DNA of 45,817 nucleotides from Candidatus Rokuibacteriota bacterium (lineage in GTDB: Bacteria > Methylomirabilota > Methylomirabilia > Rokubacteriales > CSP1-6). The notes below the pieces were generated by a model. That model was not told where the DNA came from, did no database searches, and was given only the letters and a program-made list of their open reading frames with translations. Position numbers and translations under genes: made by a program. Numbering within the stretch: position 1 is the first letter of the stretch; every line of letters starts with the position of its first letter. The DNA is taken from positions 1 to 45,817 of the forward strand of contig QHSP01000061.1 in NCBI GenBank assembly GCA_003220495.1, in the 5' to 3' direction. This document shows positions 10,893-45,817 of this stretch, piece by piece.

Positions 10893-11144
10893 CACGGTTT
10901 GCCACCCTCCCACAGGGTGTCTGGATCGTTGTCGGTTTCGACCACGGCCCCGGCGTGCGCGGTGAGGCTGCAAGCGACGTACCCGTCGCGCGCTCGGTGA
11001 CGAGCGCATCGACGAACCGCGCGAAAGACCACGGCGATCGAGACGCGACCGCGCGCGCTCCCGGGGCGCGCCGGCGCGTCGCGACGCCCAGATCGTAAAG
11101 TTTCCCGACGATCGGGCGTGCTATCGTCGCCCCGGGAGGTTCTC
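10893..11144. other. Intergenic stretch without convincing gene
   Basis: Together with the small peptide frame this forms a 348-bp gap between the CMD-like gene and the SDR remnant. Six-frame reading gives only Arg-rich shadow frames. A 6-bp inverted repeat GATCGT/ACGATC surrounds 11091-11113. Nothing else is supported. Confidence 0.4.
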
Positions 11145-11303
11145 ATGTCCGTCGTCCTCGTTACGGGTAGCAGCGCCGGCATCGGCCTCGCCACCGCGCT
11201 TCACTTCGGGCGCCTTGGCGAGGGAGTGTACGCCGGAGTCCGCAACATCGCCACCGCGACCGAGCTCACGAAGGCGATCGTGCGAGCCTTAGGAGAAAAC
11301 TGA
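11145..11303 (+). pseudogene. SDR N-terminal remnant (52 aa)
   Basis: The 52-residue frame starts at ATG 11145 after GGGAGG, so its translation start is intact. It begins MSVVLVTGSSAGIGLATAL, a clear Rossmann dinucleotide motif of a short-chain dehydrogenase, and reaches ATATELTKAI. It then ends after VRALGEN, where a full SDR needs about 200 more residues. No NNAG or YxxxK follows in any frame before the next gene. It is best read as a deletion remnant. It lies 14 bp before the selenoprotein gene and could serve now only as a leader frame coupling translation into it. Confidence 0.7.
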
Positions 11304-11317
11304 AGGAGGAAGCGTCC

Positions 11318-12967
11318 ATGGGTAGCCCTGAGAAGATCTCGGTTCTGAACCCGATGGGCTTCGCGCCGAAGGTGGTCGAGAAGCCCCTCGCGCCCCGTCT
11401 CTCCACGCTCGAGGGCAAGACCGTCTATCTGGTCGACTGCCGCTTCGACGACTCCGACGTGTTCCTCAAGCAGATGCAGGCGTGGTTCGGCGAGCATCTG
11501 CCGGGCGTCCGCACCGTCTTCAAGCCGATCTCGAGCGTCTATCTCAAGGACGATCCCACGACCTGGGAAGAGATCAAAGCGAGGGGGCACGCCGCGATCG
11601 TCGGCGTCGGCCACTGAAGCACCTGCGCGCCGGCGGTCGCCGCGCACGCAATGACGATCGAAGCGCAGTACGGAGTCCCCACCGTCGCCATGCACACCGA
11701 CAAGTTCGACCGCGTGGCCCGTTCGGTGGCGGCGGTGAACGGGATGCCGGAGCTCCGGCAGGTGTTCGTCCCCCAGCCGGTCATGGGCAAGTCGCCCGCC
11801 GAGCTCCGCGCCTACGTCGACGGCCGAGATCCGCTCACCGGGCGTCCGGTCATGCAGGAGGTCATCGAAGGGCTCACGACGCCGTTCGATGGCCAGGGGG
11901 TCGGGACGATCGAATACGATCGGTCGACGCCTCGGCTCGTCGAGGCCGACACCGAGGAGAATCTCCAGCGGCTCTTCATGGAGAGCCGCTGGACAGACTA
12001 TCTGCCGATCGTGCTCCCGACCGAGGAGCGGGTGGCGGCGATGCTGGCCGCGACGCGCCGCAAGCCGGACGAGGTCGTGGGACGCATGCGTCCGACCCAC
12101 TTCCGCGAGGCGTGGGAATACACGGTGGAGAAGGTCGCGGTGAACGCGGTGATGGCGGGCGCCCGGCCGGAGTACTTCCCGGTGATCCTGGCGCTGGCGG
12201 CCACCGGCGTGAGCGCGCGCGGCAGCACGACCAGCTCGATGGCCGCCATGGCCGTGGTCAACGGGCCGATCCGCAACGAGATCGAGATGAACGCGGGGAC
12301 CGGCGCCCTGGCGCCCTACAATCACGCCAACGCGGCGATCGGTCGCGCGTACGGGCTGCTCTCGCAAAATCTCCAGGGTGGGTCGGTGCCCGGGCTCACC
12401 TACATGGGCTCGCAGGGCAACAACTACGCCTACAACAGCATCACCTTCCCCGAGAACGAGGAGCGAAGCCCGTGGGAGCCGTTCCACGTCCAGCACGGCT
12501 TCCGCCCGACCGACAGCACCGTGAGCGTCTTCAGCGGCTGCCGCGCCACCGCCTACACGCTCGGCATTCGCGAGAAGCACTGGCGCGAGCATGTCCGCAA
12601 CATGCTGCGCGGCATGGATCCGCACATCCCGCCGGTCTTTGTGCTCGATCCCATCACCGCGCGCCAGTTCATCGACCGCGGTGGCTTCACGAAGAAGGAC
12701 GCGCTGATCGACTGGGTGTACGAGAACGCCCGGATGCCGGCCGGCGAGTTCTGGGACTACCAGCTCGTTCAGAACTATCTCTACCCGCGCGCGACGTTCG
12801 GCGAGGAGCCGTGGGCGACGAAGCTCAAGGCCGCGCCCGACGAGATGATCCAGATGTTCAAGCGCGAGGACATCCACGTGGTGGTCGTGGGCGGGGAGAC
12901 CAACGGCTACTGGCGGATCATGGGCGCCACGTACGCGAAGACCGTCTCGGTCGACGACTGGCGGTAG
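11318..12967 (+). CDS. UGSC-type selenoprotein, UGA-decoded (Sec100)
   Basis: One 549-residue gene interrupted by an in-frame UGA at 11615-11617, read here as selenocysteine. The upstream 99 codons (start ATG 11318, after GAAGGAGGA) and the downstream open frame are in the same phase. There is no stop between UGA and TAG 12965-12967, and the sequence continues smoothly: VGVGH-U-STCAPAVAAHA. The U-x-x-C redox motif (U100, C103) matches the seleno/cysteine protein family named for its UGSC motif. The C-terminal two thirds, from the RWTDYLPIVLPTEERVAAML block to the end, contains conserved-looking Gly/Asn-rich stretches (YNHANAAIGRAYGLLSQNLQ). Biochemical function is unknown. A bacterial-type SECIS hairpin follows the UGA. 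Standard annotation would split this into 99- and 438-residue proteins. Confidence 0.87.
11615..11617 (+). other. In-frame UGA, predicted selenocysteine codon 100
   Basis: The TGA is flanked by coding sequence in the same frame on both sides and is followed by Ser-Thr-Cys, giving U-S-T-C. The next in-frame stop is 1,347 bases downstream. The UxxC spacing is the common redox arrangement in selenoproteins. Confidence 0.85.
11624..11646 (+). promoter_or_regulatory. Candidate bacterial SECIS hairpin
   Basis: TGCGC (11624-11628) pairs with GCGCA (11642-11646). After a three-base 5' bulge, GGC (11632-11634) pairs with GCC (11639-11641) around apical loop GGTC (11635-11638). The loop starts 18 nt after the UGA. 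In E. coli fdhF the apical loop also contains GGUC at 19-22 nt. High GC makes chance hairpins common, but position and loop both match the known rule. Confidence 0.65.
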
Positions 12968-16888: not shown

Positions 16889-18232
16889 ATGAAGACCGCG
16901 GTCGGACTGATTACGGCGACGATTATTACGGCGATAGTGGCCCCCGGTGCCTCCGCCGAGTGGCGTCTGTACGTGAATCGCGACAACAAGGCCTGGTCGC
17001 TGGAGCGGGCCTACGTATCCAATGGCGAGTGCGATCGCGCCGCGCGGGCGCTGTACCGGTCCGGGCAGGCGCTCGGTGTCGGCTGCGCCGAGTATCCAGC
17101 GCCCAGCCTGGCGCAAGCTCCGACTCCCCGGTCTGCCGAATACTCGCGCTCGACCTCGTCGATCGAGCGACAAGTCGCGAGAGTAGATGAGGCGCGGCGT
17201 ACGAGCCCGCCGCGGGCGCCGCGAATCACAGAATATCCCGCTCGGTCCGCGCCACGCTCGGCCCCGATGGCCGAGTCTCACCCCGCAGCGGTCATCTTTC
17301 CGCCGAGCGGTGGCATCGAGATCCGACGGGAGGAGTCGCCGCGCGCCGCGGTCGTCGCGCAGGCGTCGGCGCAGCCGCGCCGTCAGGCCGTGCCCGCGAC
17401 CGCGCAGCCCAATCCGGTCGCTCAGTCCACGAGCGACGACGACAAGAATTCAGCGGCGGTGACGCTCGCCAAGGCGGCGACCGAAGCTTCGGCTGCTTCC
17501 GCGCGCGAGGCGGAAGCTGACGCGGCCAAGCGCGAGGCGGTGGGCGTGGCCGACAAAGCGGCGCGGCGCACGACGCTCGCGGTCTTCGGCGGCGTGGCGC
17601 TCGTGATGCTCGCGATCATCACGGGCGTTGCCTATAGCGTGTATCGAGTCGCCCGCACGAGTCCGCTTCGCGGGCTGGCCGCTTGCTTGATCGAGGTCGG
17701 TGTGCTCACGGCCGCGCTCGCGTACCCCGTCGTCGAGATGTGGACGCGGCTCAGGACGTCCGAATCGATCGTGATCTCGTGGATCCCGGGCTTGCTCGCC
17801 GGCATCGTGATCGCGGGCGTAGGCGTCATCGTGCTCGCTCTGAATCTCACGCGGAAGCCCGCGCGCCCGCGCAAGCCTCAAGCTCCGGTGGAGCTGATCA
17901 AGCCCGGCGAGTACATCAAGACCGGAGAGCCGAGCAAGCCGGTCGAGCCCGTCAAACCTCTGCAGCCGATGAGACCGCTCGAGCCCATCGCGCCGCTCGA
18001 AGCGCCCATGCCGCCTGACAAGCCCAAGTGGGTCGCGGCCAGGCCGGTTGAAGCGGCCAAGCCGCTCGAGCCCGCTAAACCCGTCGCAGTAGCGAAGCCG
18101 GCCGAACCCGTCAAGCCGGTCGAGCCGGCGAAGCCACTCCAGCTCGTCACACCGCTCGACGGGGCCAAGCAGGTCGAACCCGCAAAGCCCGCCGAGCCTG
18201 TGAAGCCTGCCGACGCGCCCGCGCGATCCTGA
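16889..18232 (+). CDS. Membrane protein with Lys-Pro/Glu-Pro-rich C-terminal tail
   Basis: A 447-residue protein of no recognised family. The ATG 16889 follows AAGGGGGAGGG. Residues 1-23 form a signal peptide ending GASA before EWRLYVNRDNKAW. A low-complexity, Ala/Pro/Ser-rich region follows to about 215, including an Ala-rich helix (AATEASAASAREAEADAAK). Three hydrophobic segments lie near 225-250, 256-280 and 290-315. The last 130 residues are degenerate repeats of the type KPVEPVKPLQP, similar in character to the periplasm-spanning part of TonB. It may be an envelope-spanning protein; function unknown. DNA with the same repeat character continues beyond the stop. Confidence 0.7.
   Translation: MKTAVGLITATIITAIVAPGASAEWRLYVNRDNKAWSLERAYVSNGECDRAARALYRSGQALGVGCAEYPAPSLAQAPTPRSAEYSRSTSSIERQVARVDEARRTSPPRAPRITEYPARSAPRSAPMAESHPAAVIFPPSGGIEIRREESPRAAVVAQASAQPRRQAVPATAQPNPVAQSTSDDDKNSAAVTLAKAATEASAASAREAEADAAKREAVGVADKAARRTTLAVFGGVALVMLAIITGVAYSVYRVARTSPLRGLAACLIEVGVLTAALAYPVVEMWTRLRTSESIVISWIPGLLAGIVIAGVGVIVLALNLTRKPARPRKPQAPVELIKPGEYIKTGEPSKPVEPVKPLQPMRPLEPIAPLEAPMPPDKPKWVAARPVEAAKPLEPAKPVAVAKPAEPVKPVEPAKPLQLVTPLDGAKQVEPAKPAEPVKPADAPARS
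17930..18229 (+). repeat. Degenerate KP/EP-encoding repeat tract
   Basis: Repeating codons give units such as EPSKPVEPVKP, AAKPLEPAKPVA, and EPVKPVEPAKP. Unit length varies between about 6 and 12 residues. Such tracts are prone to slippage and length change. Confidence 0.65.
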
Positions 18233-23079: not shown

Positions 23080-24897
23080 CTAGCCGGCGTGAACGGCGTC
23101 GGCCTCGAGCTCGAGCACGCGAATGGTCTCCCGCGTCGGCACGCCGGTAGCTGGGTCCCAGCCCTGCTCGACATAGTAGTCGGTGACGATCTTGTCCTGC
23201 TGCTCGCGGGTGAGGCCCGCATGCTTGGGCAGGGGGTCGCTGAAGCGCGCCGGAAGCCGATCATCGGCGCGGCTCATCCCCTCGCGCAGGTTGTACAGGC
23301 GGGCGAGCGTGAGCCCGCGATGGGCCGTCGTCACCATCTCCTCGGGCGTGATGTCCCAGCCGGTGACCGTCTTGAGGATCTGCAGCGACTGATCATCTTC
23401 GTACGCGAGGAAGTGGCAGAGCCCGATCTGGTTGCGCAAGCCGTTGCGGTTGCTGGTCTGGCGCATGTGATCGCCGCCGGTCGGCGCCAGCAGATACGAC
23501 GCGCGCATGGCCGGCATGTGACGCGGGTCGTGCATCGCCATCTCCATGCCCTTCACGGTCGTCAGGAACGCCTCGGAGCCTCGGCCGAGGCGCTGCGCGG
23601 CGCGCTGGGAGCCTTCGGCGAGCAGATCGCCGATGCCCTGCCGATACGCGATCATCTCGACCAGCTTGATGACGCCGTCGGCGTCGCGGAAGCGCAGCGG
23701 GACACCGCCGGTGTCCTCGAGCGTGAGGATGCCCTTCTCGAAGCACTCCATCGCCCACGCGAGGGTGCAGCCGAGCGAGACCGTGTCCATGGCGAGGTAG
23801 TTACACATCTCGTTGGACTTGCAGATGGCGATGAGGTCATCGAGGCCCAGGTTGACGCCCAGCGAGGCGAGCGACTCGTACTCGGGCCCGCCGTAGCGCG
23901 GGTCGACCCGGTAGCGCCCGAGTGGATCGACGGCCACCTTCGCCCGTCCCTTATAGATGGTTTCCATGGCCGCGCGCGCCGCTTCTTCCTTCTCCTCGAT
24001 GTGGACGACCTTCTTGCATCGCACGGAGCACGCGTAGCAAGCCCCCATCTTCACGCGCACCTGATCGCGCACCGCGATCGCATCGACCTTCGCGATGGTG
24101 TCGGCGGCGCCGAGACGGTAGTTGAGCACGGGCATGCCGCCCTCGAGGCTCTTGCCCTGCATCGCCGCCCCGGTCCCGAACTCGTGAAACGCGCGATGCT
24201 TCTCGTCCATCGTGCCCGAGACCCACTTGGCGATCGCCAGGAGGCCCGGCTGATCGGCGATCTTCACCGGGCTCTTGCCCCGGACCGCGATGGCCTTGAG
24301 CCGCTTCGATCCCATCACGGCGCCCATGCCCGTTCGGCCCGCGACCTCGTTGAGCTCGTTGGCGATGCACGCGAAGCGCACGAGGTTTTCACCCGCCGGC
24401 CCGATCTGAGCGACGCGGATGCGTGGGTCGCCGAGCTCGGCGAGGATCGCGTCCTCGACCTCGCCGGTGATCTTGCCCCAGAGGTGCCCGGCGTCGCGGA
24501 ACTCGACGGCGCCGTCGTTGATCCAGAGATAGACCGGGGTCGGGGAGACCCCGTGGAAGACGATTCCGTCCCAGCCGGCGCGCTTGAGCTCGGCGCCCCA
24601 GTACCCCCCGGATTCCGACTCTCCGAAGCCCCCGGTGAGCGGCGACTTGGCCCCTACGCTGTGGCGTCCGGCGCCCGGCACCGGCGCGCCGGTGAGCACG
24701 CCGGGTGCGATCACGAGGATGTTGTCGGGCCCGAGCGGGTCCGCGCCCTTCGGCACGTACTTCAGGAGATAGTGAGCGATGAGCCCGCGCCCGCCGGCGT
24801 AACGACGGAAGAAGAGATCGCCCGGCTCCTCGATCCAGGTCGTGCGGTCGGACAGGTTCACGTGCAGGATCTTGTTCCAGTAGCCGTAGCGTTCCAC
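23080..24897 (-). CDS. Aldehyde:ferredoxin oxidoreductase (tungsten-type AOR family)
   Basis: A 605-residue AOR-family enzyme, starting at GTG 24897 immediately at the stop of the MoaD-like gene. Family hallmarks are the N-terminal domain (YWNKILHVNLSDRTTW), YAGGRGLIAHYLL, SPLTGGFGESESGGYWGAEL and the [4Fe-4S] ligands Cys287, Cys290 and Cys294 in CYACSVRC, with the fourth in IGLCHF. AORs bind a bis-pyranopterin W or Mo cofactor and oxidise aldehydes to acids with ferredoxin, or run in reverse. Such enzymes are typical of anaerobic or low-redox metabolism. Tungsten rather than molybdenum is inferred from the family only. Confidence 0.95.
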   Translation of the reverse strand: MERYGYWNKILHVNLSDRTTWIEEPGDLFFRRYAGGRGLIAHYLLKYVPKGADPLGPDNILVIAPGVLTGAPVPGAGRHSVGAKSPLTGGFGESESGGYWGAELKRAGWDGIVFHGVSPTPVYLWINDGAVEFRDAGHLWGKITGEVEDAILAELGDPRIRVAQIGPAGENLVRFACIANELNEVAGRTGMGAVMGSKRLKAIAVRGKSPVKIADQPGLLAIAKWVSGTMDEKHRAFHEFGTGAAMQGKSLEGGMPVLNYRLGAADTIAKVDAIAVRDQVRVKMGACYACSVRCKKVVHIEEKEEAARAAMETIYKGRAKVAVDPLGRYRVDPRYGGPEYESLASLGVNLGLDDLIAICKSNEMCNYLAMDTVSLGCTLAWAMECFEKGILTLEDTGGVPLRFRDADGVIKLVEMIAYRQGIGDLLAEGSQRAAQRLGRGSEAFLTTVKGMEMAMHDPRHMPAMRASYLLAPTGGDHMRQTSNRNGLRNQIGLCHFLAYEDDQSLQILKTVTGWDITPEEMVTTAHRGLTLARLYNLREGMSRADDRLPARFSDPLPKHAGLTREQQDKIVTDYYVEQGWDPATGVPTRETIRVLELEADAVHAG

Positions 24898-25256
24898 TAG
24901 TCTCCCCCTTCTGTTGACGTGCTCGCCTCGCCTGCGGCTCCCCCCTCTGTCGACGTGGTCGCCTCGCCTGCGGCTGCGGCTCCCCCTTCCATTGGCGTCA
25001 GCAGCATGACGTCGGCGCCGTTGTGGAGTGGCGTGTCTCTCGCAGCCTGCTCGCCATCCACGGCAATGGTCAGATCGGTGTCAGGGGCGACGCCGATCAT
25101 CGCCAGCAGATCGTCGACCGTCGCACGCTCGGGCACCGTGTAGCGCTGCGGTCCGTCGGCGCCGCGTGGCAGGAATCGGCGGAGGTCGGCGAAGAAGGTG
25201 ACCATCACGGTGATGGTCCCCGCCTGCGTCTTCGTCAGGTCTCGAGGCCCGGTCAT
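24897..25256 (-). CDS. MoaD/ThiS-like sulfur-carrier protein with three GG motifs
   Basis: A 119-residue ubiquitin-fold protein. The core (residues 16-92) begins TVMVTFFADLRRFLP and ends LLTPMEGG at 85-92, exactly where normal MoaD/ThiS proteins stop with their activated Gly-Gly. Here the chain continues with a low-complexity tail containing two more GG ends (105-106 and 117-118, both in STEGG) and one final Asp. The tail comes from a 36-bp tandem duplication. Activation would need trimming after a GG. The gene directly precedes and overlaps the AOR gene by one base (TAGTG), so a role in its pterin cofactor sulfuration is likely. The N-terminal start is uncertain (ATG 25256 lacks a good ribosome site). 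Confidence 0.85.
   Translation of the reverse strand: MTGPRDLTKTQAGTITVMVTFFADLRRFLPRGADGPQRYTVPERATVDDLLAMIGVAPDTDLTIAVDGEQAARDTPLHNGADVMLLTPMEGGAAAAGEATTSTEGGAAGEASTSTEGGD
24911..24975. repeat. 36-bp-period tandem duplication in MoaD-like tail
   Basis: Bases 24911-24939 and 24947-24975 match over 29 positions with two differences. They encode the Glu-Ala-Ser-Thr-Ser-Thr-Glu-Gly-Gly-type units at the C-terminus of the MoaD-like protein. Confidence 0.8.
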
Positions 25257-40637: not shown

Positions 40638-41987
40638 GTGGAAAAGCCAGTCCGCGTGGTGCACTACCTGAACCAGTTCTTCGGCGGCATCGGCGGCGAG
40701 GAGCGGGCTCAGACACCGCTCGAGGTGCGCGAGGGACCTGTGGGCCCGGGACGCGCGCTCCAGCAGGCGCTGGGGACCAAGGGCACGGTGGTGGCCACGC
40801 TCATCTGCGGCGACGACTACGTCGCGGAGCGCGAAGAAGTGGCCGGCCCGAGCATGCGGGATGCGCTGCAGCGCTACCGGCCCGATCTCGTGATCGCCGG
40901 CCCCGCTTTCGACTCGGGCCGCTACGGTCTGGGCTGCGCGCTGGCATGCCGTGTGGCCCGATCGCTCGGCATTCCCGCGGTGACAGGCATGTATCCGGAG
41001 AACGCGGCCGTCATCACTCATCGCCGCGAGCTCCTCGCGGTGCCCACCGGGCTCAACACGACCGACATGCGCAGCATCGTCGAGCGCATGACCGTCCTTG
41101 GGCTCAAGGTGGTCCGCGGCGAGCCTCTCGGACCCGCGCTCGAGGAAGGCTACATTCCCCACGGCGTCCGGAAGCTGGTGACGAAGGATCGGGTCGGGTA
41201 CGAGCGGGCGGTCGAGATGCTCCTGGCGCGGGTCGCGGGCCGGCCGTTCGTCTCCGAGATCCTGGTCCAGCAGTACGAGCGCGTCACGCCGGCGCCGCCG
41301 GTGGCCGACCTCTCGCGCGCGACGATCGGAATCGTCGTCAGCACGGGCATCGTTCCGCGAGGTAATCCCGATCATCTGCCCGGGGCCAGGGCTCTCACCG
41401 CGGGCCGCTATTCGATCGACCGGCTGCCGCGCCTCGACGTGGGTGACTGGGAGTCGGCCCACGGCGGGTTCAACACGAAGGTGCTGAATACCGAGAACCC
41501 CGACTACGCGCTGCCGCTCGCCACCTTGCGCGCGCTCGAGGCCGAGGGGGCGATCGGCGGCATCTATCCCTGGATCTACAGCACCGTCGGCAATCAGACC
41601 GCGGTCGGGCCGGCGCGCAAGATCGGGCAGCTCGCCGCGGCCGAGTTCCGGGACGCCGGAGTCGCCGTCGCGCTCCAGGTGTCCGGGTGAGGGAGCTGCC
41701 ATCGTTGCGGCGCAACGATCACGAAAGAGCTGGAGCGAGTCGGCATTCCCACAGCGCTGATCGGCGCGCTGCCGGCGATCGCCATTGCCGCCAACGCCAA
41801 CCGCGTTGTTCGCGGTGTGCAGGTCCAGCATCCCTGCGGTGACCCGAAGCTGCCCGCGGAGGCCGACCGGGACCTGAGCCTCCGGATCGTCCGGACGGCG
41901 CTGCTGGCGCTGCAGACGGCGGTCACCGGCCCGACGCTCTTCGAGCCTCCCTCCACGACCGCCGCCGAGCGCGTCCATGCGTCTTGA
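40638..41987 (+). CDS. GrdB-like selenoprotein (glycine/betaine/sarcosine/proline reductase component B, gamma), Sec351
   Basis: One 449-residue gene, read through an in-frame UGA at 41688-41690. Start GTG 40638 follows GGACGGAGG. The N-terminus matches component B of glycine/sarcosine/betaine reductases: VVHYLNQFFGGIGGEE, EGPVGPGRALQQALG, TLICGDDY and AGPAFDSGRYGLGCALAC. At residues 351-357 the sequence reads U-G-S-C-H-R-C, followed by GATITKELERVGIPTALI, the conserved GrdB redox motif. The frame ends at TGA 41985-41987, overlapping the next start by 11 bp. GrdB forms a selenoether with substrate during reductive C-N cleavage. Substrate here is unknown and GrdA, GrdC and GrdD are absent nearby. 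Ordinary calling would end it at 350 residues. Confidence 0.93.
41688..41690 (+). other. In-frame UGA, predicted selenocysteine codon 351
   Basis: The TGA falls exactly where GrdB has its selenocysteine. The downstream 98 codons are open and encode the expected C-terminal continuation, with UxxC and CxxC spacing. Confidence 0.92.
41701..41719 (+). promoter_or_regulatory. Candidate bacterial SECIS hairpin
   Basis: ATCGTTGC (41701-41708) and GCAACGAT (41712-41719) form a perfect 8-bp stem with loop GGC (41709-41711). The loop starts 19 nt after the UGA. Distance and a G-first apical loop fit the SelB-binding hairpin rule for bacteria. Confidence 0.8.
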
Positions 41988-43278
41988 GCTGGCCGCCTTT
42001 CCGGTGCGCGACGTCCGCTTCGGCGCGACGACGCGATGGCGCGACGGCGTTCTCGAAATCGATCCCGACGAAGTCCTGGAGCCGGTTCGCCGCGACCCGC
42101 TGGTCGAGCGAGCCGAGCTCGCGGTGGCGCGGCCAGGCGAGTCGATCCGCATCGTCACGATTCAGGACATCATCGAGCCGCGCGTGAAAGCGACGGGGCG
42201 GGGCGCCACATATCCCGGCATCGTGGGGCGTCCGGTGGAGACCGTTGGCGAGGGTCGAACGAACCGGCTCTCCGGCTTCACCCTGATGACGTGCACGCCG
42301 CCCCAGGACGTCAAGCGTTACGGCCTGCTCTCCTCGTTCCGGCCCGGCACCGCGTACGGCGACTTCCTGGACATGTCGGGTCCCGGCGCGATCAGCCCCT
42401 GGGCGAGCACCGTCAACCTCTGCCTGCTCGTCGAGCCGGTGCGCCATCTCGATCCTGACCCGGCCAACCGGGTCGTGCAGCAAGCGACCTTGGCCGTGCA
42501 AGACCAGCTTGCGCGCGCCACTCTCGCAGAGACGCCCGCCGAGGTCGAGGTGCTCGACCTGACGCCGCGGCCCGGCCTGCCCGGCTTCGTCTACATCCAC
42601 AGCATCGTGTCGCCCGAGCCCATCTATCTGAATCCGGACTCGACGCTCTCCACCGCGGTCTACGGCATCACGCGACTCACCCAGCCGTGGCTCTTGCACC
42701 CGACCGAGGTTCTCGACGGCGCCGTCTGCGGAAGCTTCTTCAGCGGCGACTTCTACCGGTGGTTCACCTGGCCGCTGACGAACAGCATCGTCCTTCACAT
42801 GTGCCGCCGTCACGGGATCGACTTCAATTTTCTGGGCTGCATCATGGTGCGCACGATGTGGGAGGAGCAGCGACAGAAGGAGCTCATGGCCAACCGCGCG
42901 GCGCTCATGGCCACGACGCTCGGCGCGGCCGGCGCCATCGTCACGCCGACGCTCCGCGGCCAGCGGATGCTGGACACGATGGCCGTGGTCCGGGCGTGCG
43001 AGGAAGCCGGCGTCAAGACCGTGCTCATCACCGAGGAAGAGGACGACGAGGACGGCTCGGCGCCGCCGCTGCTGGTGACGGCACCCGACGGCGTCGGGCT
43101 CGTCTCGACGGGCGACGGCAGCGCGCCCGGGCCCTTTCCACCTGTGCAGCGCGTGATCGGCGCCGGCCCGATCGGCGACCACTGGCATGCCGAGCAGCCG
43201 GCCCCTCACGGCCGGTACGGGACGAGCCACCTCAACGACGTCTGGGGATTCTCCCGCCTGTCCTGTGTGGACTACTAG
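41977..43278 (+). CDS. GrdE-like (glycine/betaine/sarcosine reductase component B alpha/beta proprotein)
   Basis: A 433-residue protein matching the pyruvoyl-type proprotein of component B. Start ATG 41977 lies inside the end of the GrdB-like gene. Family blocks include LAAFPVRDVRFG, TIQDIIEPRVKATGRGATYP, HIHSIVSPEPIYLNP-like YIHSIVSPEPIY, and LLHPTEVLDGAVCGSFFSGD. The Cys251 in GAVCGS lies at about the position where GrdE is cleaved to generate the pyruvoyl group that binds the substrate amine, so self-processing into about 250- and 180-residue chains is expected by analogy. The C-terminal part keeps GAAGAIVTPTLRGQ and KTVLITEEEDDED. With the GrdB-like partner it would form a substrate-specific component B. 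Confidence 0.9.
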   Translation: MRLELAAFPVRDVRFGATTRWRDGVLEIDPDEVLEPVRRDPLVERAELAVARPGESIRIVTIQDIIEPRVKATGRGATYPGIVGRPVETVGEGRTNRLSGFTLMTCTPPQDVKRYGLLSSFRPGTAYGDFLDMSGPGAISPWASTVNLCLLVEPVRHLDPDPANRVVQQATLAVQDQLARATLAETPAEVEVLDLTPRPGLPGFVYIHSIVSPEPIYLNPDSTLSTAVYGITRLTQPWLLHPTEVLDGAVCGSFFSGDFYRWFTWPLTNSIVLHMCRRHGIDFNFLGCIMVRTMWEEQRQKELMANRAALMATTLGAAGAIVTPTLRGQRMLDTMAVVRACEEAGVKTVLITEEEDDEDGSAPPLLVTAPDGVGLVSTGDGSAPGPFPPVQRVIGAGPIGDHWHAEQPAPHGRYGTSHLNDVWGFSRLSCVDY

Positions 43279-43383: not shown

Positions 43384-44460
43384 ATGCGTGAGGACATCTC
43401 TCGTCGAGACGTGCTGCAGGCCATGGGGCTGGGCGCGGTCGCGATCGCGCTCGCCGAGCTTGGCGAGGCGCGGCCAGCCTGGGCCGAGGACGCGTTCACC
43501 ATCGCCTCGACGGGAGGGTCCTGGGGCGACGGCTTGAAGCAGGCCTACGTGGTGAACGCCGGCTTCGAGAAGCGCTTCAACGCCCAGGTCAGCTACGCGC
43601 ACATGATCGACTCGGTGATCGCGACCAAGGCGATCGCGCAGTGCGGGAATCCGCCGTTCACGGTCCCGGCGCTCCTGAACGCCGAGGCGGTGATGCTGGC
43701 GGAGGGCGGCTGTCTTCAAGATTACGATCTCGGCGTCGTCACCAACTACAAGGACCTGCTGCCCGGCACCTTCGAGGCCCCTCGGGCGGGCCTCAAGTCC
43801 TACTGGGCAGCGCACACCCAGATCATCATGGGCCTCGTCTACAACACCAAGCGGGTGGCGGCGAAGCCGACCTCGTTCATGGACCTGGGGAGCGCGAAGT
43901 ACAAGGGCAAGATCGCCATCCCGGCCTATGGCTGGGTCGGCATCCAGTGGCTGCACGCGCTGAACCAGTCCCTGGGCGGCTCCCCCGACCAGATCGACCC
44001 GGGCATGAAGGCGATCGCGGAGCTCGTCAAGAAGAACGACGCGATCGTCATGGAGAACACGGATGTGACGCTCAAGGCCTTCACGCGCGAGGAGATCTGG
44101 ATGATGCCGTTCTGGAACGGACGGTGCTTCTCGCTGCAGGCCGAGGGGGTACCGGTGGACATCGTCTACCCCAGAGGCAGCTTCCAGGTAGGCAACGGCT
44201 TCCCGATCCTCAAGGGCACGAAGTTCGAGCGCCCGGCGCAGCACTTCGTCAACATCACCCTGGATGCGGACTACCAGCTCGAGATGACGCGGCGGTTCCG
44301 ATATCCCCCGTCCAACAAGAAGGCGAAGCTCCCGCCGGAGATCGCACACTATGCCCTGAAGGACGCCGACCTCAAGGCCATGATGCCGCTCGATTTCCAG
44401 AAGATGAACCAGCACCGCGCCGCCTATCTCGCCCGCTGGAACAAAGAGGTCCTGGGCTAA
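43384..44460 (+). CDS. ABC transporter substrate-binding protein (PotD-like), Tat signal
   Basis: A 358-residue periplasmic binding protein. Start ATG 43384 follows AGGAGG; the upstream ATG 43291 gives no signal peptide. Residues 1-35 form a Tat-type signal with twin arginines (SRRDVLQAMGLGAVAIALAE), cleaved before EDAFTIAST. The mature protein has the spermidine/putrescine or iron-binding family fold: TIASTGGSWGDGLKQAYVVN, PTSFMDLGSAKYKGKIAIP and FWNGRCFSLQAEGVPVDIVY. The ligand may be a polyamine, an amine or a related cation. Adjacent GrdB/GrdE-like genes make an amine compound attractive, by inference. Confidence 0.92.
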   Translation: MREDISRRDVLQAMGLGAVAIALAELGEARPAWAEDAFTIASTGGSWGDGLKQAYVVNAGFEKRFNAQVSYAHMIDSVIATKAIAQCGNPPFTVPALLNAEAVMLAEGGCLQDYDLGVVTNYKDLLPGTFEAPRAGLKSYWAAHTQIIMGLVYNTKRVAAKPTSFMDLGSAKYKGKIAIPAYGWVGIQWLHALNQSLGGSPDQIDPGMKAIAELVKKNDAIVMENTDVTLKAFTREEIWMMPFWNGRCFSLQAEGVPVDIVYPRGSFQVGNGFPILKGTKFERPAQHFVNITLDADYQLEMTRRFRYPPSNKKAKLPPEIAHYALKDADLKAMMPLDFQKMNQHRAAYLARWNKEVLG

Positions 44461-44465
44461 GGGTC

Positions 44466-45548
44466 GTGCGCGGCCAGCTCGAGGTGAGGGGGCTGACCAA
44501 GCGGTTTTCGCCTCAGGTCACGGTCGGTCCCCTGTCGTTCGAGGTGATGGAGGGCGAGTTCTTCTCGCTGCTCGGCCCCAGCGGCTGCGGCAAGACGACG
44601 ACGCTGCGCTGCATCGCCGGGTTCGAGGAGCCGTCCGAGGGTTCGGTGCTCCTGGGCGGCCACAGGCTTGACGGTCGGCCTCCGCACCGCCGTGACGTCG
44701 GACTCGTGTTCCAGACCTACGCCCTGTTCCCGCACCTGACGGTCTTCGACAACATCGCGTTCGGCCTGCGGCTACGAAAGGCCGGCAAGCCGGAGATCGC
44801 GCGCCGGGTGGGGCAGATGCTGGAGCTCGTGGACCTGCCGAACCTGGCCGAGCGCTACCCGTCCCAGCTGTCGGGTGGCCAGCAGCAACGCGTCGCCATC
44901 GCCCGCTCGCTGGTGCTGGAGCCGAGCCTGCTCCTCTTCGACGAGCCCCTGTCCAACCTCGACCTCAAGCTACGCATTCAGATGCGCTACGAGCTACGCG
45001 ATCTGCAACGGCGGCTCGGCAAGACCGCGGTCTACGTCACCCACGACCAGACCGAGGCGCTCGCCCTGTCCGACCGTATCGCCGTCCTGTCGCAGGGCCG
45101 GATCGAGCAGATCGGCACGCCGAACGAGATCTACGAGTCCCCGGCGAGCGCCTTCGTCGCGGATTTCATCGGCAGCTCCAATCTCCTCACGGCCTGGGTC
45201 CGCGGCCAGAACGGCGGCGATACCACCCTGGAGACCGAGCACGGCCTCGTCCTCACCCTCCCCCGCGTTGCCGACGTGTCGGGCGCGACGGTGACCCTGC
45301 TGCTGCGCCCCGAGCGGTTCCAGGTCGCCGCCATCGGCGAGTCCGACCAGATCGTCGCCAATCGCTTCCGGGCGCGCGTGCGGGACGTCACCTACATGGG
45401 AGAGGACCTCCACCTGCGCGTCCTCGCGCTCGAGAAGCAGCCCTTGCTCGTGTCCATCAAGAACAGCAAAGGGACGCGCGCCATCGTCCCGGGCGTCGCC
45501 ATCGAGCTGGCGATCGATCCCGAGGACATCCACATCCTGCGACGCTAG
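44466..45548 (+). CDS. ABC transporter ATP-binding protein (PotA-like)
   Basis: A 360-residue ATPase of the spermidine/putrescine and iron group. The start is GTG 44466, five bases after the binding-protein stop. Walker [10 protein letters not shown] lies at 37-45, the Q-loop in [19 protein letters not shown] at 135-139, Walker [13 protein letters not shown] and the H-loop in [13 protein letters not shown]-terminal TOBE-type beta domain follows from about 240. It energises the importer made with the upstream binding protein and the downstream permease. Confidence 0.95.
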
Positions 45549-45556
45549 GGCGCGCG

Positions 45557-45817
45557 ATGGAGGGAGGACGGCCCTCGCCATACTGGGCGCTGTTCGTCGG
45601 CCCCTACGGCGCCTACCTGCTGCTGTTCCTCGTCCTGCCCTTCGTCAACGTGGCGCTCCTCAGCGTGTACCTCCACTCGCCGACCAAGATCGCGGTGGCC
45701 GAGTTCACCGGCACGAACTACGCCAAGCTCTGGGAGGTGTACTACGCCACCCTGTTCCTGCGCACGCTCCGGCTCTCGCTCCTCGTCACGATCGGCTGCG
45801 CGGTGCTCGGCTACCCG
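45557..45817 (+). CDS. ABC transporter permease (PotB-like), 5' part only
   Basis: Starts at ATG 45557, 8 bp after the ATPase stop, and runs off the window after 87 codons. It begins MEGGRPSPYWALFVGPYGAY, with a first membrane segment LLLFLVLPFVNVALLSVYL, an external loop (EFTGTNYAKLWEVYYATLFL) and the start of a second segment (LSLLVTIGCAVLGYP). The pattern matches the first permease of spermidine/putrescine-type importers. The rest, including a probable second permease, lies outside. Confidence 0.9.
   Translation, partial: MEGGRPSPYWALFVGPYGAYLLLFLVLPFVNVALLSVYLHSPTKIAVAEFTGTNYAKLWEVYYATLFLRTLRLSLLVTIGCAVLGYP

Follow-up and report, generated by a model that had tools for sequence, protein, structure and literature searches.

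Does the stretch of DNA analyzed here (the window, 45,817 nucleotides from a Candidatus Rokuibacteriota bacterium) carry two truncated genes side by side, or a single selenoprotein gene that is read through an in-frame TGA, and, in the latter case, what might its product do?

Gene structure and decoding of the in-frame TGA

The two nominal open reading frames (ORFs), at positions 11318 to 11617 and 11618 to 12967 of the forward strand, share one phase, and the TGA is all that separates them (Table 1). It is preceded by 99 sense codons, and the same frame is then free of stops up to the terminal TAG; reading through yields a product of 549 residues, including the selenocysteine (Sec), with the motif GVGH-U-STC (GHUSTC). 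The sequence thus bears out the initial annotation, which had described a 99-codon and a 438-codon frame in one phase, joined by a single UGA and read continuously through U-S-T-C, a U-x-x-C motif. The 438-codon ORF starts at an internal ATG (position 11651, codon 112) that has no evident ribosome site, and the 11 codons between the TGA and this ATG, which encode STCAPAVAAHA, lie outside both nominal ORFs. When the window was scanned for TGA codons flanked on both sides by coding-like sequence, the sites returned were the one at 11615, one at 41688 in a GrdB gene, and four more. Of these four, two (8172 and 9186) are normal ends of genes; the other two are at 18230 and 38529. Directly upstream of the selenoprotein gene there is a short ORF (11118-11303, +) that by eye resembles the truncated N terminus of a short-chain dehydrogenase (TGSSAGIGLATALHFG) and is probably a gene remnant.

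Table 1. Positions of the features discussed in the text
Feature	Positions	Strand	Remarks
Shine-Dalgarno sequence GGAGG	11305..11309	+	8-nt spacer to ATG 11318, an ideal ribosome site; from sequence
Complete selenoprotein gene (predicted)	11318..12967	+	549 residues with Sec encoded by codon 100; ends at TAG 12965-12967
UGSC domain	11342..11818	+	Residues 9-167; PF24696, 89.1 bits (cut-off 25); predicted flavodoxin-like/CheY-like alpha/beta fold
In-frame TGA, predicted selenocysteine 100	11615..11617	+	Directly follows the model's third strand and precedes the next helix; Cys in six orthologs
Codon of Cys103 (UxxC partner residue)	11624..11626	+	Shared with the 5' end of the hairpin; invariant in alignments A1 and A4
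Predicted bacterial SECIS hairpin	11624..11650	+	Apical loop GGUC at 11635-11638; 17 nt from UGA to loop
Second domain	11930..12964	+	Residues 205-549; well modeled, without a confident known fold; family absent from Pfam and NCBIfam
GrdB-family selenoprotein gene	40638-41984	+	TGA 41688-41690, UGSCHRC; TIGR01918 383 bits, PF07355 369 bits
GrdE-like gene	41977-43278		Overlaps the GrdB gene
ABC-transporter-like genes	43411-45817		After the GrdE-like gene

Among the relative genomes searched, 15 other full-length orthologs from the genus and family (76 to 95% identity), each in an independently assembled genome other than the window's own, have a TGA at the same codon, which indicates that it is neither a product of chance nor a sequencing error; the TGA is also present in a further ortholog that is cut at its 5' end. 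In eight ortholog comparisons, dN/dS was approximately 0.10 to 0.34 before the TGA and 0.05 to 0.22 after it. Codons 101 to 111 had no nonsynonymous differences in any of the eight, and their synonymous divergence was approximately 0.12 in seven of them, compared to 0.38 to 0.52 for the whole part after the TGA, as would be expected if an RNA structure were also under selection. These comparisons indicate that purifying selection acts on either side of the TGA and also on these 11 codons. Interrupted orthologs were observed in two genomes of the same genus (L018 in one, L019/L088 in the other) and may reflect assembly error or decay.

The search of the named genome contigs returned 80 relatives. 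The window gene belongs to a well-supported group of 22 (support 100/99) that spans Rokubacteria, Myxococcota, Chloroflexota, Acidobacteriota, Actinomycetota, and Pseudomonadota. In six copies of this clade (L073 to L077 and L090), codon 100 encodes Cys; these copies cluster as a single nested group (100/99), the simplest reading of which is one Sec-to-Cys replacement. The full-length Cys orthologs have 63 to 70% identity. Within the clade the exchange at codon 100 is always to Cys, and columns 100 and 103 (U/C-x-x-C) are invariant in alignment A4. Full-length homologs with either U or Cys at this codon, the pattern by which the initial annotation proposed to check its reading, thus exist, and none of the homologs found ends at codon 99. 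All 16 sampled genomes with a TGA copy contain selA, and none of the five genomes known in this analysis for a Cys copy only does; the genome of the sixth Cys copy (L073) also carries a TGA paralog (L084) and has selA. Five other full-length UGSC fusions (L099, L102, L106, L116, and L131) have Leu, Met, Ser, or Ala at the Sec position and are possibly non-redox members.

The host genome (98% complete, 159 contigs) encodes the entire Sec machinery that the initial annotation had listed: selB, selA, and the tRNA-Sec gene (selC) lie within 5 kb on contig C152, and selD is found on contig C1 (77537-78481). The selD gene has one in-frame TGA of its own, so that Sec synthesis probably requires a Sec-containing SelD. 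A recent paper mentions a Methylomirabilota genome in which 63 selenoprotein genes are predicted (PMC13188914).

The region just 3' of the UGA is predicted to fold into a putative SECIS element. Downstream of the UGA, a hairpin recurs whose loop, at positions 21 to 24, has the sequence GGUC, or AGUU or GACC in more distant relatives, and the stem flanks covary among relatives (GGC/GCC, GAC/GUC, CAC/GUG, and AAC/GUU). In 21 TGA sequences, the six-pair stem was 85.7% paired, with double-sided changes in four pairs and a covariation of 0.304, a value reached by none of 500 shuffles, although kinship alone can lift sequences above shuffles without any structure; versions slid along these TGA copies reached at most 0.235. 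The same columns in seven Cys sequences were 35.7% paired with a covariation of 0.079, and in most of these sequences the GGU is disrupted by a GCC codon. The window sequence itself does not form the outer stem pairs, and Rfam gave no match in the window at gathering scores. The folding energy is by itself not unusual (z -0.68), so that the case for a SECIS element rests on the comparative counts. By its GGUC loop, 17-nt spacing, compensatory changes, and loss in the Cys copies, the hairpin fits the bacterial SECIS model as quoted in PMC13188914.

Taken together, these data indicate that the UGA at 11615 is almost certainly read as Sec. Two other readings of the frame were weighed. A plain ORF finder does return two ORFs, as it would for two separate genes or for a pseudogene created by nonsense mutation or sequencing error; this reading is barely conceivable, given that the 15 sister genomes share the TGA, that the codons between the ORFs are conserved, that the Cys orthologs read through, and that the second ORF has no ribosome site. 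Similarly, the frame would be open under any code that reads TGA, and the UGA might be reassigned genome-wide, for example, to Trp, or be subject to leaky termination. We consider this very improbable, since several orthologs of this gene, and likewise the GrdB gene in the window, end in TGA, since tRNA-Sec, SelA, and SelB are present, and since exchange in the clade is always to Cys.

Domain composition and predicted folds

The initial annotation had proposed that the split gene is a UGSC-type selenoprotein, and the match to PF24696, the conserved TGA, and the sel genes uphold this; the label is correct for the family and not for the motif itself, which is U-S-T-C and not U-G-S-C. The NCBI equivalog for UGSC proteins, NF041046, scored 62.7 bits, below its cut-off of 125; judged by its sequence, the window protein is a divergent branch and not a member of this equivalog. 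Genomes of the window's genus contain 4 to 9 UGSC copies each.

The full-length structural model had a pLDDT of 94 and a pTM of 0.92. Its UGSC half has a flavodoxin-like arrangement of alternating strands and helices, in which Sec100 follows the third strand. Residues ~29 to 192 matched AerR, CheY-like, and periplasmic-binding-protein-like chains (top VIA Z 9 to 10, rmsd ~2.3 to 3.6), scores that are only modestly above background and therefore name a fold class, not kinship. The matches listed in the fold search with the full model were mostly Rossmann-like chains on the UGSC half and included no thioredoxin, an absence that does not amount to proof. A thioredoxin-like fold was suggested when the UGSC family was described (PMC2398784), and the fold class predicted here may argue against it. 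Sequence searches of the PDB with the full-length, second-domain, and UGSC profiles returned nothing convincing, with one match, 8ga6, at an E value of 0.002.

The second domain, which the initial annotation had put at some 500 residues, comprises about 345. Modeled alone, it had a pLDDT of 95. It matched no Pfam or NCBIfam family and gave no confident PDB match. In Foldseek, class I fumarases and the barbiturase/cyanuric acid hydrolase (Toblerone) fold matched weakly over ~350 columns, with E values of 3.7e-3 or worse, TM of ~0.25, and VIA Z of at most 6.1; OmpA/tubulin-like fragments were also among the weak matches. As regards the [4Fe-4S] ligands of class I fumarases, no Cys is found in the invariant or nearly invariant columns of alignment A3. 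Conserved polar positions are D227, N276, N338, R343, N351, and E379. Kinship of the second domain with GrdE was considered and rejected, as the comparison showed none.

The host genome has seven UGSC genes, each with one TGA, and five of them are fused to the second domain. Its eight second-domain genes comprise these five fusions, two that form adjacent pairs with a UGSC-only gene (contigs C1 and C21), and one orphan (contig C114). In relatives in which the domains are separate ORFs (L022, L023, and L142), the break lies between the domains and not at the UxxC motif. Because seven of the eight second-domain genes are fused or adjacent to UGSC and the splits fall between the domains, the two probably form one functional unit. 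These counts do not agree with the view of the initial annotation that the fusion makes the product unusual, and the UGSC family together with a UGSC/Unknown_1 fusion was published in 2008 in the Global Ocean Sampling selenoproteome (PMC2398784); the second domain of the window protein is likely Unknown_1. At some loci (L093, L097, L107, L111, L121, and L135), UGSC fusion genes occur in tandem arrays of two or three, which suggests multisubunit or substrate-diversified sets.

Kinship with GrdB, gene neighborhood, and proposed reaction

The window contains a second selenoprotein gene, of the GrdB family, whose product has the Sec region VSGUGSCHRCGATITKELERVGIPTALIG; the Pfam GRDB model ends just ahead of this Sec. 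When the UGSC and GrdB profiles were compared, U was aligned on U with a probability of 93% (P 3e-7). The controls gave 3.6% for the reversed profile, at most 0.3% for ten column shuffles, and 0.8% for the second domain against GrdB. Masking of the eight motif positions in both profiles weakened the match (28.5%, P 6e-4), which was still above every control. The NCBIfam UGSC model independently matched the GrdB protein of the window (E 5e-4). A distant homology between the UGSC domain and the Sec domain of GrdB/PrdB is thus probable, although not proven.

Gene neighborhoods at the 80 loci were clustered from gene calls made with a custom scorer. Apart from UGSC and second-domain genes, the commonest neighbor encodes a TrxB-like FAD/NAD(P)H disulfide reductase (18 of 80 loci), and 14 of these 18 loci belong to the group of 22 that contains the window gene. 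Such a neighbor fits, since a UxxC enzyme needs a partner of this kind. The gene lies just upstream in some loci and downstream in others; it was found in Alpha-, Beta-, and Gammaproteobacteria and in one actinobacterium, and it is kept by five of the six Cys copies of the clade, including an actinobacterium. All complete copies in the group have a CASCD active site (CASC motif). The neighbors at the 18 loci share with TrxB the FAD/NAD(P)H type and a CxxC, and the four that were tested reached 265 to 271 bits on TIGR01292, below its equivalog cut-off of 343, and are hence termed TrxB-like. The gene is not beside the window gene or the Rokubacteria copies examined; the host genome has one full-length TrxB-like protein, 35% identical. 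Neighbors identified by eye as similar to binding subunits of tripartite tricarboxylate transporters occur at 13 of the 80 loci, and a CoA-transferase-like gene (also by eye) lies at a greater distance from the window gene. These transporter and CoA-transferase neighbors hint at a carboxylic-acid-type compound or small carboxylates as the substrate. Closer neighbors in the window encode a carboxymuconolactone-decarboxylase-like protein, a luciferase-like oxidoreductase, a zinc dehydrogenase, and an amidohydrolase. Elsewhere in the window, the product of one gene (23083-24897, -) resembles, by eye, a protein of the aldehyde:ferredoxin oxidoreductase type, with a MoaD/ThiS-like gene ahead of it (24900-25256, -).

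The explanation of the whole to which we give a little better than an even chance is that of a Sec-decoded UGSC fusion that acts as a GrdB-like selenol reductase and is fed via a thioredoxin-reductase-like flavoprotein. SelB and tRNA-Sec would decode the UGA as Sec with the aid of the hairpin just 3' of it, and the UGSC domain would work like the Sec domain of GrdB/PrdB, the selenoprotein B of glycine/proline reductase. Sec100, as nucleophile or reductant, may attack a small organic substrate that the protein holds at the second domain or beside it; Cys103 would then resolve the selenenyl intermediate as an Se-S bridge. Reduction of this bridge would fall to the thioredoxin-reductase-like NAD(P)H flavoprotein whose gene is adjacent in many relatives. 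In Rokubacteria, the bridge is presumably reduced in trans by a housekeeping thioredoxin reductase. Only tentatively do we advance the wider proposal that the UGSC and second domains constitute a new branch of GrdB-type selenoenzymes, in which NAD(P)H delivered through a dedicated TrxB-like flavoprotein drives selenol-catalyzed reductive cleavage of a small organic substrate bound with the second domain, with a non-thioredoxin fold, without a pyruvoyl partner, and also in Cys genomes that lack selA.

Two other functions were considered for the same protein. The UxxC motif, the thioredoxin-like fold proposed in the original description of the family, and the TrxR-like neighbors would all suit a generic thioredoxin-like thiol-disulfide oxidoreductase, in which UGSC has protein disulfides or peroxides as its substrates and is only docked by the second domain. 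We consider this unlikely, because the predicted fold is flavodoxin/CheY-like (with the VIA Z scores to AerR and CheY given above), the profile kinship is with GrdB, and L106 and L116 retain both domains although they lack U and C. Alternatively, the second domain may be the true catalyst, resembling a hydro-lyase or cyclic-amide hydrolase, with UGSC as its redox switch or carrier; this would accord with the weak fumarase and barbiturase/cyanuric acid hydrolase matches from Foldseek and with the existence of the UGSC-free second-domain gene on contig C114 and of members without UxxC. The low scores of these matches and the missing Fe-S cluster Cys of fumarases in the conserved columns make it quite improbable.

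Comparison with known selenoprotein families

As the family and its fusion were already published in 2008, the window gene is a new member, from a clade with the USTC motif. To this the present analysis adds a Sec/Cys-exchange clade matched to the presence of selA, the probable link to GrdB, a predicted fold class, and the TrxB-like neighbor. The literature searched, which included few subscription papers, contained nothing on the function of UGSC proteins, on a GrdB link, or on a TrxB-like neighbor. In aquatic metagenomes, UGSC proteins count among the most abundant selenoproteins (PMC2398784), and the GrdB link, the flavodoxin-like fold, and the TrxB-like donor make the question of their function testable. 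The Cys orthologs in isolates (Microbacterium album and Rhodobacterales HKCCE4037) could be produced without Sec machinery.

The window protein resembles GrdB/PrdB, the selenoprotein B of the glycine, sarcosine, betaine, and D-proline reductases of anaerobes (PF07355, TIGR01918, and TIGR04483), in its UxxC motif and in a Sec half that aligns U on U. It differs from them in three defining features and is for this reason not classed as GrdB. (i) It has another second domain and lacks the GRDB N-terminal domain; PF07355 gave no match in the window protein and is not among the 25 families listed for the 68 members of alignment A2. (ii) Its USTCAPAV has no second downstream Cys, unlike the UxxCxxC of GrdB/PrdB. 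(iii) No pyruvoyl-type GrdE/PrdA gene is adjacent to it, the nearest GrdE gene being ~29 kb away in the separate GrdB pair. With the UGSC family (PF24696/NF041046), the window protein shares the N-terminal domain, the UxxC motif with Sec, and the attachment of a further domain of unknown function, whereas its clade has USTC in place of UGSC and its closest orthologs have about ten more residues near the end of the domain.
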